Shown here piece by piece: positions 7,255-14,714 of a DNA stretch of 21,446 nucleotides. Position 1 is the first letter of the stretch; the number at the start of each line of letters is the position of its first letter. Under the pieces are notes generated by a model. It made no database searches. It worked only from the letters and a program-made list of their open reading frames with translations, and was not told where the DNA came from. The position numbers and the translations under genes are program-made. This DNA is from a virus, in the IMG/VR virus record IMGVR_UViG_3300044613_004029, positions 1 to 21,446 of that record. One strand, 5' to 3'.

Positions 7255-7272
7255 TGTTGTAAAAATACAACA
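7255..7272 (+). promoter_or_regulatory. Operator-like palindrome, copy A
   Basis: TGTTGT-N6-ACAACA, a perfect palindrome that also extends by one base pair inward. It ends 6 nt before the -35 box at 7279. It lacks a following T-run, so an intrinsic terminator is unlikely. It belongs to a family of four such sites in this window. Confidence 0.65.
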
Positions 7273-7278
7273 GCCCCC

Positions 7279-7306
7279 TTGACAATGCCATTGGTTAGTG
7301 TACAAT
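7279..7306 (+). promoter_or_regulatory. Sigma70 promoter for SWIM protein, leaderless geometry
   Basis: TTGACA at 7279-7284 is a perfect -35 and TACAAT at 7301-7306 a good -10, with a 16-nt spacer. The ATG at 7313 lies only 6 nt beyond the -10, so the transcript would begin at or beside the start codon. Confidence 0.8.
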
Positions 7307-7312
7307 AGTGGC

Positions 7313-7729
7313 ATGTTTAAAATTCTACAGGAAGTTACGGACTGGTCAGGTTGCGATTATCAAGTTTGCAATCATACCTATTTGATAAGTCCGAAAAACA
7401 AGGTTATCGCCTTTGCAAATGAAACAACAGGCGAAATTGTCAAATTGAAAAATGGTTGGGATTTTGATAAGCGTTATCGAAAGTTTATCGAAGTTAAAAA
7501 TCCTGCATTATCAAAATTGATACCAAAAGATTATCAAGAAGAAAAGTTGCAGAAACCGCAACTTGTCAAATCCGCAAATATACGTAATTTCAAAGTCTTA
7601 TCAAAAGGTAAAGAATATTACGTTTCTTACAACATTTCAGGAAATTTCTATAATTGCAATTGTACGGGTTTTGGATATCGCAGGACTTGTTCACATGTTA
7701 AGGCTGTTGCAGAAAAACAACAGGCTTGA
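7313..7729 (+). CDS. SWIM zinc-finger protein
   Basis: A 138-aa protein with a C-terminal SWIM-type zinc finger: C115-x-C117-x8-C126-x-H128 (NCNCTGFGYRRTCSHVKA). SWIM domains bind DNA or proteins and occur in recombination-associated factors and ATPases; here no partner domain is attached. A GTG at 7298 lies within the promoter, so ATG 7313 (MFKILQE) is the better start. There is no Shine-Dalgarno. The last codons carry palindrome copy B and the -35 of the next promoter. Role probably regulatory or DNA-linked, by inference. Confidence 0.82.
   Translation: MFKILQEVTDWSGCDYQVCNHTYLISPKNKVIAFANETTGEIVKLKNGWDFDKRYRKFIEVKNPALSKLIPKDYQEEKLQKPQLVKSANIRNFKVLSKGKEYYVSYNISGNFYNCNCTGFGYRRTCSHVKAVAEKQQA
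7705..7722 (+). promoter_or_regulatory. Operator-like palindrome, copy B
   Basis: TGTTGC-N6-ACAACA, one mismatch from the family consensus, with the outer base pair C7704/G7723 also complementary. It ends 3 nt before the -35 at 7726. It lies inside the end of the SWIM coding sequence. Confidence 0.55.
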
Positions 7730-7753
7730 CATTCCTGCCTAAATCTGTATAAT
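7726..7753 (+). promoter_or_regulatory. Sigma70 promoter
   Basis: TTGACA at 7726-7731 and TATAAT at 7748-7753 are both consensus, with a 16-nt spacer. The -35 overlaps the stop codon of the SWIM gene. It drives the gene at 7784 and the following unit. Its sequence is nearly duplicated at 8783. Confidence 0.88.
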
Positions 7754-7783
7754 GGTCTTTGTTGATTGATTAGAGAGCGAATT

Positions 7784-7984
7784 ATGTGGAATCTTGAAGG
7801 TATGCAAGTTGTCGGAATGTATATGAATGACATTACTGTTTCTGGTACGGTAGACCTTTCAAGGGTCAAATATGGTGGAGAGGTTTCGCATCATGTAGTA
7901 TTAGACAGCCCGATTAATGTTTACGGAGCCATCCGTGAACGGGTTATTTTGAATCATTCTGAAATTGTTCAAGTGAGAGGTTAA
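7784..7984 (+). CDS. Small conserved phage protein (66 aa)
   Basis: A 66-aa protein starting at ATG 7784 behind a GAGAG Shine-Dalgarno (7773-7777); an upstream TTG at 7766 is too close to the promoter to be preferred. It is beta-rich (GMYMNDITVSGTVDLSRVKYGG, then VVLDSPINVYGAIRERV). Proteins of this pattern recur beside LPD29-like genes in phages as far as I recall, but no function is known. It is the first gene of a unit of small proteins. Confidence 0.78.
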   Translation: MWNLEGMQVVGMYMNDITVSGTVDLSRVKYGGEVSHHVVLDSPINVYGAIRERVILNHSEIVQVRG

Positions 7985-7986
7985 TT

Positions 7987-8373
7987 ATGGCTTACGTTTC
8001 TCAAGATTTGAAGGCAAGTCTGGCACCTAAGATTAAGGCAATCTGCAAAAAATATGGCGTAAAAGCCAGCCTTGCAGTCCGTAACAATATGACATTGGTG
8101 CTGAATGTAAAATCTGGTAAAGTGGATTTTATTAATGATTACGGTGATACACCAGAAGCTCGTGCTGATGCTGAGAAATTCGGAATTCAAGTGAATCCAT
8201 ATCATTACAAAAACCACTTCAATGGTGAAGCATACCACTTTTTGAGTGAAGTGATTCCAGCAATGAATGAAGGTAACTGGGATAAGTCTGATATTCAGGT
8301 CGATTATTTCAATGTCGGTTGGTATATCGATGTAAACATTGGTAAGTGGAACAAGCCGTATCAATTATCATGA
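7987..8373 (+). CDS. LPD29-like phage protein
   Basis: A 128-aa protein matching, from memory, the LPD29 (large polyvalent-protein associated) domain. Key segments are an N-terminal helix LAPKIKAICKKYGVKASLAVRN, a central HFNGEAYHFLSEVIPAMNEGNWDKSDIQVDYF, and the C-terminal GWYIDVNIGKWNKPY. The family occurs free-standing in phages or inside giant conjugative or phage polyproteins; its function is unknown and counter-defence roles have been proposed for polyvalent proteins in general. It follows the 66-aa gene by 2 nt and overlaps the next by ATGA. Confidence 0.8.
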   Translation: MAYVSQDLKASLAPKIKAICKKYGVKASLAVRNNMTLVLNVKSGKVDFINDYGDTPEARADAEKFGIQVNPYHYKNHFNGEAYHFLSEVIPAMNEGNWDKSDIQVDYFNVGWYIDVNIGKWNKPYQLS

Positions 8374-8720
8374 TAATTTACACCAATCAACGGTCGAAAA
8401 AGAAAAATAAGACCAAAAAGGAAATCGAGGAATACCAAAAATGGCTCGATAGCGTAGGGTCGCAAAAAACGACCTTCGCTATCAAGAAACTTGGCGGTTT
8501 CAAAAAATCTACCAAAATGCCAAAGTTGGAGATTCCTGAAGCAAGGAATCCTAAAAATTATCCTAGCGTTGACAGTGGTAAAGGTTCGGCGACAAAGCCT
8601 GTGTATGGCAAAGTTTACACTGGTACGAAAATGAAGGGTATCGGAACCTTGCATAAAAGTAATGCTGTTCCCATTTTCACTGACCAGGAAGCCAAAGACC
8701 AGGCAGCCATGCGGAGATGA
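8370..8720 (+). CDS. Conserved phage protein of unknown function (116 aa)
   Basis: A 116-aa basic protein. The chosen ATG at 8370 overlaps the upstream stop (ATGA); a GTG at 8346 would give an unlikely 24-nt overlap. The N-terminal third is Lys/Arg-rich with a KKEIEEYQKWLDS helix. The C-terminus, KGIGTLHKSNAVPIFTDQEAKD, is a pattern I recall from many phage proteins. No catalytic motif is seen. It is the last gene before a promoter region. Confidence 0.75.
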   Translation: MIIYTNQRSKKKNKTKKEIEEYQKWLDSVGSQKTTFAIKKLGGFKKSTKMPKLEIPEARNPKNYPSVDSGKGSATKPVYGKVYTGTKMKGIGTLHKSNAVPIFTDQEAKDQAAMRR

Positions 8721-8761
8721 CAACATTTTCAAAAATGCAACTTTGTTATCAAAAAGAAAAC

Positions 8762-8779
8762 TGTTGTATTTTCACAACA
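8762..8779 (+). promoter_or_regulatory. Operator-like palindrome, copy C
   Basis: TGTTGT-N6-ACAACA, perfect, ending 3 nt before the -35 at 8783, the same distance as copy B. The intergenic stretch just upstream (8716-8750) also holds a weak imperfect hairpin, GATGACAA pairing with TTGTTATC. Confidence 0.65.
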
Positions 8780-8782
8780 CGC

Positions 8783-8810
8783 TTGACATTTGCCGTGGAA
8801 TCTGTATAAT
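8783..8810 (+). promoter_or_regulatory. Sigma70 promoter for GP88 gene
   Basis: TTGACA at 8783-8788, 16-nt spacer, TATAAT at 8805-8810. It shares GCTTGACATT, AATCTGTATAATGGT and TGATTGAT with the promoter at 7726. Confidence 0.88.
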
Positions 8811-8841
8811 GGTTCCTGTGATTGATAAGGCGATATAAATT

Positions 8842-9591
8842 ATGAAACTTCTTTCTACTGGTAACCCAAAAGTGTTAAAAGGAATGAAACAAGGTTATAA
8901 CACCTACATTCTACACTTAGCACCCGCTAATGTTTCTGGTTTTGAAACATGTCCAAAACGTACAGCGGGCTGTACCGCTGCTTGCTTGAATACAGCAGGT
9001 CGTGGCGGTATGTTCAAAAAAGGCGAATCTACTAACGTAATTCAAGAAGCCCGCAAGCGCAAAACGCTATTCTTTTTCGAAGAGCGAGCTGGTTTTATGG
9101 AGTGGTTGGTTGCTGATATCGAATTGGCGATTAAACAATCTGCCAAGAAAAATCTGATTCCGGTTTTCCGCTTGAACGGTACTTCCGACCTAGCGTGGGA
9201 AAAATATGAGGTTGTTCGTAAAGGTATTGTTTACAAAAATATCTTTGCGGCTTTTCCTGATGTTCAATTTTACGATTACACCAAAATTCTTGGTCGCAAA
9301 GTAAAAGATATTCCAAATTATCACTTGACCTTTTCGGCAGCTGATGGTAATGATCTGGATGTTCTCCGTGCAATTGCTGAAGGTTTGAATGTAGCAACGG
9401 TGTTCGGTTTGAAAAAAACAGAAGCGATGCCTGAATCGTACAACGGTCGGCCTGTGTTTAATGGTGATGATTCTGACTTGCGATTCCTTGATCCAAAAGG
9501 TGTGGTTGTTGGTCTGTATGCAAAGGGTAAAGCCAAAAAAGATACTTCTGGCTTTGTAAAGTTTCCTACAATTATGATGAAGGCGGCTTGA
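8842..9591 (+). CDS. GP88-family phage protein
   Basis: A 249-aa protein matching, from memory, the phage gene-product-88 family. It opens with MKLLSTGNPKVLKGMKQGYNT and has a cysteine cluster C37-x6-C44-x3-C48 (ETCPKRTAGCTAACLNTAGRG), followed by PVFRLNGTSDLAWEK and a C-terminal GLYAKGKAKKDTSGFV. The cysteines could bind zinc or an iron-sulfur cluster. The family's biochemical role is unknown. It has its own strong promoter and heads a unit of small genes running to 10484, with a 1-nt gap to the next. Confidence 0.85.
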   Translation: MKLLSTGNPKVLKGMKQGYNTYILHLAPANVSGFETCPKRTAGCTAACLNTAGRGGMFKKGESTNVIQEARKRKTLFFFEERAGFMEWLVADIELAIKQSAKKNLIPVFRLNGTSDLAWEKYEVVRKGIVYKNIFAAFPDVQFYDYTKILGRKVKDIPNYHLTFSAADGNDLDVLRAIAEGLNVATVFGLKKTEAMPESYNGRPVFNGDDSDLRFLDPKGVVVGLYAKGKAKKDTSGFVKFPTIMMKAA

Positions 9592-9592
9592 T

Positions 9593-9826
9593 ATGAATAT
9601 TGTGCAAAAAATTCAAGAAGAAATTATGATTGGTGATTTATCGTTTCAAGAAATTGCTGAAAAGTTTAATGTGCCTTATGCTGATGTAAACTTAATTGCG
9701 GATGAAATGGCAATCCAAGATTCTTATGATGAATCAATGGATGGTGATTTTGATTCTGCTATGACTTCTGCTGGTTTCGGCACCGATGAAGATTATGGTT
9801 ATTATGGAGATGAATCTTATGCTTAA
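9593..9826 (+). CDS. Small protein with N-terminal HTH-like segment
   Basis: A 77-aa protein. Residues 1-40 (IMIGDLSFQEIAEKFNVPYADVNLIADEM) read like a helix-turn-helix with the usual xxEIAxxFxVPxxxV spacing. The C-terminal half is very acidic and Gly/Tyr-rich (GTDEDYGYYGDESYA) and probably disordered. It could be a small DNA-binding or adaptor protein; this is inference. Its end overlaps the next gene by 8 nt. Confidence 0.72.
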   Translation: MNIVQKIQEEIMIGDLSFQEIAEKFNVPYADVNLIADEMAIQDSYDESMDGDFDSAMTSAGFGTDEDYGYYGDESYA

Positions 9827-10055
9827 GGAATGGGAAAATATTCGTGATTCTTTCGATACTCGCCACGGAGGTCCATTTGATCGTGGCTCTGCTGATAGTT
9901 ACTACCATCGTCCTCGAAACCCGCATTACTTTAAGGGTGATACCTATAATTCCGAGGAAGTAAAAAAAGAACAAATGAGTTTCGCTGAAATCTTAGCTTA
10001 CAATGCAGGTTATGATTACAATGAAAAGTTTGGCGACAAAAAAGATTGGGGTTAA
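9819..10055 (+). CDS. Conserved phage protein (RHGGPFDRGSADSYY family)
   Basis: A 78-aa protein starting at ATG 9819 behind GGAGA (9807-9811); upstream ATGs give an implausible long overlap. The TRHGGPFDRGSADSYYHR and AYNAGYDYNEKF segments match, by recollection, a small protein found in many phages that carry GP88-like genes. It is polar, rich in Tyr, Arg and Asp, with no catalytic motif known to me. Function unknown. It is followed after one base by the next gene. Confidence 0.78.
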   Translation: MLKEWENIRDSFDTRHGGPFDRGSADSYYHRPRNPHYFKGDTYNSEEVKKEQMSFAEILAYNAGYDYNEKFGDKKDWG

Positions 10056-10056
10056 T

Positions 10057-10281
10057 ATGACCATCGTGAGGAAAAAATTAGCCACAGGTAAGTTTACAAT
10101 TGACCTGACGGGCCCTCAAGGCAATGCCTTTGTTCTGATGGGATATGCTAAAACTTTTAGTAAACAATTGAATCTCGATTATGAAAAAATCACCGAAGAA
10201 ATGCGTTCTGGTGATTATGATAATTTGATAAATGTTTTTGATAATTATTTTGGTGATTATGTTATTTTAGAAAAAGGCTAA
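10057..10281 (+). CDS. Conserved phage protein (DLTGPQGNAFVLMGYA family)
   Basis: A 74-aa protein starting at ATG 10057, one base after the previous stop. A core FTIDLTGPQGNAFVLMGYAKTF followed by EEMRSGDYDNLINVFDNYFGDYV is a pattern I recall from many T4-like and other phages. It is alpha/beta and cytoplasmic, of unknown function. Its stop shares a base with the next ATG (TAATG). Confidence 0.78.
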   Translation: MTIVRKKLATGKFTIDLTGPQGNAFVLMGYAKTFSKQLNLDYEKITEEMRSGDYDNLINVFDNYFGDYVILEKG

Positions 10282-10484
10282 TGGAGATGACTATGCAATG
10301 GACTGAAACCTCAAGAAAAGAGTGGCGATTACCTGGATCCGAAGAAACAAAATTTGTTGATACTACAGAGGACAATATTTTTGAATTTTATTTGGATGCT
10401 TGGTTCTACTGCAAAAGAAATAAAATTCCGTTTGATAAGATCAAACGGAAAACTTTCAAGCTTTGGAAAATAGAAAGTGTATAA
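10281..10484 (+). CDS. Small phage protein of unknown function (67 aa)
   Basis: A 67-aa protein. Three in-frame ATGs (10281, 10287, 10293) are possible; 10281 couples to the upstream stop, while GGAG at 10283-10286 favours 10293. It has an acidic middle and a basic C-terminus (KRNKIPFDKIKRKTFKLWK). No family recognised. The stop lies within the loop of the inverted repeat 10461/10498. Confidence 0.65.
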   Translation: MEMTMQWTETSRKEWRLPGSEETKFVDTTEDNIFEFYLDAWFYCKRNKIPFDKIKRKTFKLWKIESV

Positions 10485-10498
10485 TTCTTTTTCCAAAG
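10461..10498 (+). repeat. 10-bp inverted repeat spanning the stop codon
   Basis: CTTTGGAAAA at 10461-10470 is complementary to TTTTCCAAAG at 10489-10498, with an 18-nt loop that contains the stop of the 67-aa gene. No T-run follows, so it may protect an mRNA 3' end or act as a weak terminator. Confidence 0.45.
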
Positions 10499-10500
10499 TT

Positions 10501-10518
10501 TGTTGTGCCCAAACAACA
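10501..10518 (+). promoter_or_regulatory. Operator-like palindrome, copy D
   Basis: TGTTGT-N6-ACAACA, perfect, 28 nt upstream of the -35 at 10547. An alternative overlapping stem, GCCCA 10507-10511 with TGGGC 10525-10529, is also possible in RNA. Confidence 0.6.
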
Positions 10519-10537: not shown

Positions 10538-10562
10538 CAGGTGACCTTGACAATGTGACCTG
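10538..10562 (+). promoter_or_regulatory. 25-bp imperfect palindrome centred on a -35 box
   Basis: Centred at 10550, ten of the twelve base pairs are complementary (outer arms CAGGT and ACCTG). It covers the whole -35 element, so a bound protein would block or modulate the promoter. Confidence 0.5.
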
Positions 10563-10575
10563 TTTGTGTTACACT
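10547..10575 (+). promoter_or_regulatory. Sigma70 promoter, extended -10
   Basis: TTGACA at 10547-10552, 17-nt spacer, TACACT at 10570-10575 preceded by TGT (extended -10). It drives the gene at 10607. Confidence 0.8.
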
Positions 10576-10606: not shown

Positions 10607-11002
10607 ATGGCTCGTGGTAAATCTATTAAACTTAAACCTTTTCAAAAAATTCTTACACTGTTAATCAGTGGTAAGCCTGTCTCCATTCAGGAGATTGACG
10701 ATGCATTTGGCTCAGAGATTCAAATGTATCGCTTGTCCACTTATATGTGGCATATTAAAACCAACGCTGAAGGCGTCATTCGACCTATCAAAGATGGTCG
10801 CAAAGTGACAGCATATCAGCTGGTCAATGTTTCTGAAGTGAAGAAATATATGGACCGTGTTGGTGTTACTCAAGCTGCAGCAACGCCTGCAACAAAAGAA
10901 ACCAAGGCTAAGAAAGTTTCTAAACTCAAAGACCTTGATGCACAACCTGTTGTAGCACCAGTTGTTGAAGAAGTTGTTGTTACCGAAGTTGTTGATGCTT
11001 AA
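10607..11002 (+). CDS. Conserved phage protein with winged-helix-like N-terminus
   Basis: A 131-aa protein with ATG at 10607 behind AGGAG (10594-10598). Residues 1-80 are compact and basic: FQKILTLLISGKPVSIQEID, then MYRLSTYMWHIKTNAEGVIRP and KDGRKVTAYQLVN, compatible with a winged-helix fold. Residues 90-131 are a low-complexity Ala/Thr/Lys then Val/Glu tail. I recall close relatives in T4-like marine phages, all uncharacterised. It is monocistronic, lying between its own promoter and a hairpin terminator. DNA binding is inference. Confidence 0.8.
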   Translation: MARGKSIKLKPFQKILTLLISGKPVSIQEIDDAFGSEIQMYRLSTYMWHIKTNAEGVIRPIKDGRKVTAYQLVNVSEVKKYMDRVGVTQAAATPATKETKAKKVSKLKDLDAQPVVAPVVEEVVVTEVVDA

Positions 11003-14042: not shown

Positions 14043-14714
14043 ATGAATTTTAATCACATAAAACTTGAATCTCTCAATTTCGATTTGGAATCAGAGACAA
14101 CAGAAAAGGGTAGGACATATAAAACGAAGGAGGGTAGGTCCTACCCATCAATCACTACAGTTCTTTCAGAGTACAATAGAAAGGCCATTTTTGAATGGCG
14201 TCGAAGAGTTGGTGAAGAAGAAGCTAATAGAATATCCAAAAAAGCTTCTGGTAGAGGAACAAAGCTTCATAATGTTTGTGAAAAATATCTGCTAAATGAA
14301 ATGTCAGATATGAAAATTAGCATGATGATGCCAGATACAAAGGAACTCTTTTTAAAGATACGACCGTTACTTGATAAAAATATTGAAGATGTTTACGGTA
14401 TAGAACAACCACTTTACAGTGATAAGTTAAGAATAGCAGGCCGTTGTGACTGTATTGCTGAGTGGGATGGTGTTCTTTCTATTGTTGACTGGAAAACAGC
14501 AAACTACAAAAAAGAAAAAGACCATATTGAAAATTACTTCATGCAAGCGGCGGGTTACGCTGTCATGTTTGAAGAAATAACTGGTATAGCAATTGACCAA
14601 ATTGTAATCGCCATTGCTGTAGAGAATGAAGATCCACAAGTTTTTATTGAACAAAAGGGTGACTATTTGCCTGGTTTAAAGGCGTACATTGATAAATATT
14701 TCTTGACAAAGTGA
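14043..14714 (+). CDS. RecB/MGME1-like PD-(D/E)XK exonuclease
   Basis: A 223-aa single-domain nuclease of the PD-(D/E)XK superfamily. Visible motifs are SITTVLSEY at 37-44, GRGTKLHNVCE at 70-80 with H76 and E80, E121, D136 (GRCDCIAEWDG), D149-x-K151 (VDWKT), and the RecB-family Q168-x3-Y172 (QAAGY). Such enzymes degrade DNA from ends or process flaps using Mg2+. T4-like marine phages carry similar proteins, which would serve recombination, host DNA breakdown or repair. The start ATG 14043 follows the upstream stop by one base. A promoter for the next gene overlaps its stop. Confidence 0.9.
   Translation: MNFNHIKLESLNFDLESETTEKGRTYKTKEGRSYPSITTVLSEYNRKAIFEWRRRVGEEEANRISKKASGRGTKLHNVCEKYLLNEMSDMKISMMMPDTKELFLKIRPLLDKNIEDVYGIEQPLYSDKLRIAGRCDCIAEWDGVLSIVDWKTANYKKEKDHIENYFMQAAGYAVMFEEITGIAIDQIVIAIAVENEDPQVFIEQKGDYLPGLKAYIDKYFLTK

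Follow-up and report, generated by a model that had tools for sequence, protein, structure and literature searches.

A helically phased palindrome upstream of early promoters in T4-like phages, a candidate operator for a host activator of outer-membrane genes

The window analyzed here is the entire IMG/VR record IMGVR_UViG_3300044613_004029, 21,446 bases in length. A scan of its sequence found exact copies of the palindrome TGTTGT-N6-ACAACA at 7255-7272, 8762-8779, and 10501-10518, and a fourth copy, TGTTGC-N6-ACAACA, with a single mismatch (T6 to C) at 7705-7722. All four putative operators have a sigma70-type promoter 3 to 28 nt downstream, the gap to the TTGACA hexamer being 6, 3, 3, and 28 nt in order of position, and the spacers between -35 and -10 being 16, 16, 16, and 17 nt. 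These promoters, with zero to two mismatches to consensus, are strong by sequence. Features of the region are as follows.

7255..7272, no strand assigned: operator 1, TGTTGTAAAAATACAACA; sequence scan
7279..7306, plus strand: promoter 1, TTGACA, 16 nt, TACAAT; gap 6; promoter scan
7313..7729, plus strand: predicted operator 1-controlled gene with a SWIM-like product; SWIM match under the curated cut-off
7705..7722, no strand assigned: operator 2, TGTTGCAGAAAAACAACA, within the 3' end of the preceding gene; sequence scan
7726..7753, plus strand: promoter 2, TTGACA, 16 nt, TATAAT; gap 3; promoter scan
7766..7984, plus strand: predicted operator 2-controlled gene, 72 residues, function unknown; open reading frame
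8762..8779, no strand assigned: operator 3, TGTTGTATTTTCACAACA; sequence scan
8783..8810, plus strand: promoter 3, TTGACA, 16 nt, TATAAT; gap 3; promoter scan
8842..9591, plus strand: predicted operator 3-controlled GP88-family gene; Pfam PF17338, E 4.7e-39
10501..10518, no strand assigned: operator 4, TGTTGTGCCCAAACAACA; sequence scan
10547..10575, plus strand: promoter 4, TTGACA, 17 nt, TACACT; gap 28; promoter scan
10607..11002, plus strand: predicted operator 4-controlled winged-helix gene; AlphaFold2 model

A first-pass annotation had reported the four copies, their constant 6-nt spacer, and their distances to TTGACA, all of which our measurements reproduce. Its expectation that such sites should be rare by chance also holds: with up to one mismatch allowed, four sites are observed where 0.175 would be expected, and the maximum in any of 200 first-order Markov sequences was two. 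As that annotation had also noted, the promoters at 14703 and 19939 are without the palindrome, none being present within 70 bp at up to two mismatches; the promoter at 2370 fell under the promoter cut-off used for this comparison.

The first operator-controlled gene most likely begins at ATG 7313, not at GTG 7298. Because this ATG lies only 7 nt past the -10 hexamer TACAAT (window 7301-7313), the gene is probably leaderless. The same layout from -10 to ATG is common to several relatives. A stretch resembling TGTTGATTGA / TTGAGTGAGA occurs soon after the -10 at window positions 7757-7766 and 8819-8828 and at many related phage promoters, and may represent a conserved beginning of the early transcripts.

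Relatives of the window, 80 viral contigs totaling 1.25 Mb, were gathered through the GP88-family gene at 8842-9591. Exact sites in this collection number 94 with the 6-nt spacer, and from zero to four with each other spacer from 0 to 20 nt. A promoter lies downstream in the direction of the gene at 151 of 169 distinct sites, while the count for the opposite direction, 30, is near the 16% background. Orthologous places keep their operators: one is found upstream of 51 of 77 gp88 orthologs, and for the gene at 7313 the count is 25 of 34 orthologs, with none before 18 ssb genes or 32 exonuclease genes. The proposals that the palindrome is conserved in relatives and that it marks a set of promoters are both supported. 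Individual phage records have up to 11 operators, and the genes they control are mostly small and of unknown function. The named phages XacN1, RAS14, DC31, and Melnitz have no sites, and a literature search on the motif returned nothing relevant.

The distance between operator and promoter is not arbitrary. Among 131 sites less than 70% identical to one another, the gap to the -35 hexamer peaks at about 6, 15-16, and 27-28 nt, and the best period among those tried is 10.5 bp (R 0.51), with a Rayleigh p of about 1e-15 that is only indicative because the sites are related. A second scan, for the operator plus TTGACA in all viral contigs without selection on gene content, and with a few contigs shared with the first sample, gave 72 sites with a broad peak at 10.5-11.5 bp (R 0.43-0.45, p about 1e-6). 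Within single phages the gap may be nearly constant, as in G009 (15-16), G047 (7 and 16-17), and G044 (mostly 5-6). The operator sequence and its phasing are well supported. A 68-kb phage contig, G042, has a gap of 10 at all four of its operators (L397-L400), a helical phase unlike that of the T4-like group; the phase is displaced by 2-4 bp in this contig and in part of the second scan.

For 250 site-promoter pairs in which the promoter is at most one mismatch from consensus, the phage phase at 10.5 bp is 7.3. The site lies 24-56 bp before the -10 in 224 pairs, and in only two does it fall between 24 bp before and 40 bp after the -10. This is not the arrangement of a steric repressor. If a standard start site is assumed, the phage operators are centered near -50, -60, and -71. 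The sites show the arrangement of class-I-type activator sites, upstream of the -35, clear of the promoter core, and at distances that differ by whole helical turns.

The same operator occurs in bacteria. A scan of genome contigs for the operator with a -35 and a loose -10 returned 62 scattered stretches, among which only the leads in Nitrosomonas and Anaerolineae were useful. Nitrosomonas has a single conserved operator promoter, with a gap of 16-17, before an acyl-AMP ligase gene (L294, L303, L304, L316, L336, L344, L345, L348, and others). Anaerolineae/Chloroflexi have a small operator-promoter set, several of its members before AAA-ATPase genes (L306, L310, L317, L318, L323, L334, L338, L341, L350, L352, L354), and the gaps in that set, mostly 5-7, 16-17, and 26-27, are those of the phage phases.

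In most of 399 Burkholderiales-order genomes the bare operator is near background. Small genomes of this order, 1.28-1.35 Mb, have the operator with phage-like spacers. The family to which these small genomes belong, represented by 150 genomes, has 130 exact sites, whereas the reversed control occurs 23 times; in its members up to 1.7 Mb the corresponding counts are 69 and 4. Any one host genome has zero to four exact copies. The host sites precede genes for several kinds of porin, OprO/P-like porins, TonB receptors, MlaA, and OmpA-like proteins, all names being read from sequence; in another small host genome the operator stands before an acyl-AMP ligase gene, as in Nitrosomonas. At OprO/P-like porin genes, repeats of 11 bp that resemble PhoB boxes lie between operator and gene (L413, L417, L419, L420, L434, L441). 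Distances from host operator to best -10 cluster at 29-30, 49-50, 56-62, and 69-70, with eight outliers, and the host phase at 10.5 bp is 7.3, equal to that of the phages. As one would expect of promoters that depend on an activator, the host genes have weak -35 hexamers (TTGCTA and similar). No autoregulated regulator gene was recognized among the host sites.

The family is most likely Methylophilaceae, judging from genome size, published genome data, and the methylotrophy marker Fae, which is found in larger members of the family and not in the small ones. Ca. Methylopumilus, with genomes of 1.28-1.31 Mb and 37% G+C (PMC10872708), fits in both size and composition. CRP/FNR proteins (PF13545) above the cut-off are present in two Nitrosomonas genomes and in none of 16 streamlined site-bearing genomes, a result that removes this family as a candidate binder in those hosts. 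As a separate observation on hosts, a T4-like site-bearing phage contig, G036, encodes an IscU (G036_43) that is 80-88% identical to Burkholderiales IscU among the matches listed, which makes Burkholderiales-order hosts likely for such phages; the marker indicates the order and no single family, and G036 is a related phage, not the window itself.

We consider it reasonably likely that the operator belongs to a host activator of outer-membrane genes, acting in the class I manner, and that early promoters of T4-like phages have captured it. Each 18-bp operator would be bound by a dimeric protein that occupies a single face of the helix, at a distance of one to several turns before a sigma70 promoter, and that touches RNA polymerase as class-I-type activators do. 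The binder, most likely host-encoded, would activate genes for porins, OprO/P-like porins, TonB receptors, MlaA, and OmpA-like proteins in Methylophilaceae and their relatives. T4-like phages of such hosts would have placed the operator before strong early promoters, and a regulator already active in the growing cell would thereby turn on small early genes immediately. The operator sequence, its fixed spacer, its phasing and conservation, the host gene set, and the phase common to phages and hosts come directly from computation; we infer that one protein serves both the phage and the host sets, that this protein is a host factor which activates and does not repress, and that the phage in the window infects a host of this kind. 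Several observations weigh against the host-activator reading. Melnitz, a phage of Methylophilales, is among those with no sites; the phage promoters, being near consensus, may work without an activator; CRP gives only weak activation of sigma70 promoters from near -50, the position most used by the phages; some phages, such as G042 with its gap of 10, use another phase; and a regulator of the phages' own could recognize the same sequence. We would further suggest, as a speculative and rather doubtful extension, that replicating phage operators, besides driving early genes, titrate the activator so that less of it reaches the genes for porins and receptors, which would alter the cell surface and lead to superinfection exclusion.

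The study that described Melnitz found no recognizable middle promoters in that phage or in other marine T4-like phages, perhaps because such promoters have diverged beyond detection (PMC9004378). The operator promoters offer a defined, testable promoter class for Melnitz-related phages, and are a candidate for an additional layer of control in them. The host-activator reading also predicts an undescribed regulator of outer-membrane genes, with its regulon, among abundant bacteria with streamlined genomes, and suggests that a captured host activator can set the timing of early phage genes. Operator sequence and phase together may serve as a clue in matching uncultured phages with their hosts.

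Comparison with known systems gives partial likenesses. In E. coli, the class I sites of CRP similarly place a dimer palindrome upstream of the -35 of sigma70 promoters, on one helix face, at -61.5 or further upstream (PMC2859248), to which the second phage position, near -60, is close. CRP differs in the sequence of its site, in its absence above cut-off from the streamlined hosts, and in position; the commonest phage position is near -50, where CRP works weakly on sigma70 promoters (PMC2859248), so the geometry of contact would differ from that of CRP. The TyrR box, TGTAAA-N6-TTTACA, supports class I activation from one DNA face (PMC4374768), and resembles the operator in its two 6-bp arms, its 6-nt spacer, its TGT...ACA ends, and the G-N14-C pattern also present here. 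The inner triplets, however, are AAA/TTT in TyrR boxes and TGT/ACA here, and the targets here are outer-membrane or phage early genes. We regard the likeness to TyrR boxes as a lead. The P2 Ogr and P4 Delta site, TGT-N12-ACA, is a dyad upstream of phage promoters (PMC3931495) into whose consensus the operator fits, but the P2 promoters are late and depend on a phage zinc-finger activator, and a search of 12 records for an Ogr_Delta protein (PF04606), with E values up to 1 accepted, found none; membership in that system was rejected. Like T4 MotA middle promoters, these form a promoter class of T4-like phages with an element of its own. Here, however, a palindrome lies upstream of an intact TTGACA, which all four window promoters keep, and the -35 position is not occupied by a MotA box, TGCTTtA (PMC9004378), so membership in the MotA class was likewise rejected.

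A regulator encoded by the phage itself, for example the winged-helix product of the gene at 10607, might instead switch the early genes and regulate its own gene through operator 4, a possibility we regard as unlikely. In a first comparison of nine site-bearing genomes plus the window with two site-free genomes, the 10607 family was the sole fit, being present in all 10 site-bearing records and in neither of the site-free ones. Its AlphaFold2 model is a confident winged helix (helix-helix-helix-strand-strand-helix, pLDDT about 90) whose nearest shapes are of the MarR/ArsR type, with no strong match (E not below 3.9e-3), and an operator precedes a gene of this type in the window, G007, and G014. 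However, neither G040 (345 kb, 11 sites) nor G047 (9 sites) has a member of the family, the site-free contig G017 does have one, and only 8 of 61 orthologs have an operator upstream; the presence of the family does not follow the sites, and we rejected it as a general binder. Nor does any other phage gene family track the sites, by profile HMMs in 21 genomes and the window, although absence of a family is uncertain because some records are fragments. With the same operator also present in the same phase before host genes, a host factor is favored over the phage products at 9593, 10607, and 11051 that the first-pass annotation had named as candidates, a suggestion that found no support.

It seems improbable that the bound protein, of host or phage origin, is a repressor that shuts the early promoters off or keeps them in reserve. 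Such a role would suit phage promoters as strong as these, and a repressor too can touch polymerase from upstream. Against it, overlap of a site with the -35, -10, or start is very rare, the site-bearing host promoters are weak, and activators commonly act from phased positions as far away as about -90.

Direct binding of the alpha subunit of polymerase to an A-tract resembling an UP element is very improbable. Many spacers are rich in A/T, and the copies closest to the promoter occupy UP-element positions, but it is the arms that are conserved and not the spacer, spacers with G+C occur (GCCCAA in operator 4), and sites are found near -71 as well, with host sites also at about -81 and -91. The arm consensus is TGTTGY / RCAACA, in which variation is confined to position 6 (T or C), position 13 (A or G), and, to a lesser degree, the outermost base. 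Joint counts at positions 6 and 13 (T-A 188, C-A 49, T-G 33, C-G 10) show the two to be independent, and the stem covariation expected of an RNA hairpin is absent. This pattern supports interpretation of the palindrome as a DNA operator, putatively for a dimeric regulator as originally proposed. That it is instead an intrinsic terminator or other RNA hairpin that ends the upstream gene can be practically dismissed, for although the palindrome is often at the end of the preceding gene and site-free relatives have hairpins at the equivalent place, no T-run follows the palindrome at the relatives' sites, the pair-breaking C-A is more frequent than U-G as the closing pair, and the distance to the next promoter is phased at 10.5 bp.

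The hairpins just mentioned are found in two operator-free T4-like contigs, G004 (L118-L126) and G006 (L127-L135), which have variable CCCTAC...GTAGGG hairpins directly upstream of early promoters, in the usual place of the operator. We considered these palindromes as an alternative operator and rejected them, since they are variable and several are followed by T-runs, and they look like ordinary terminators.
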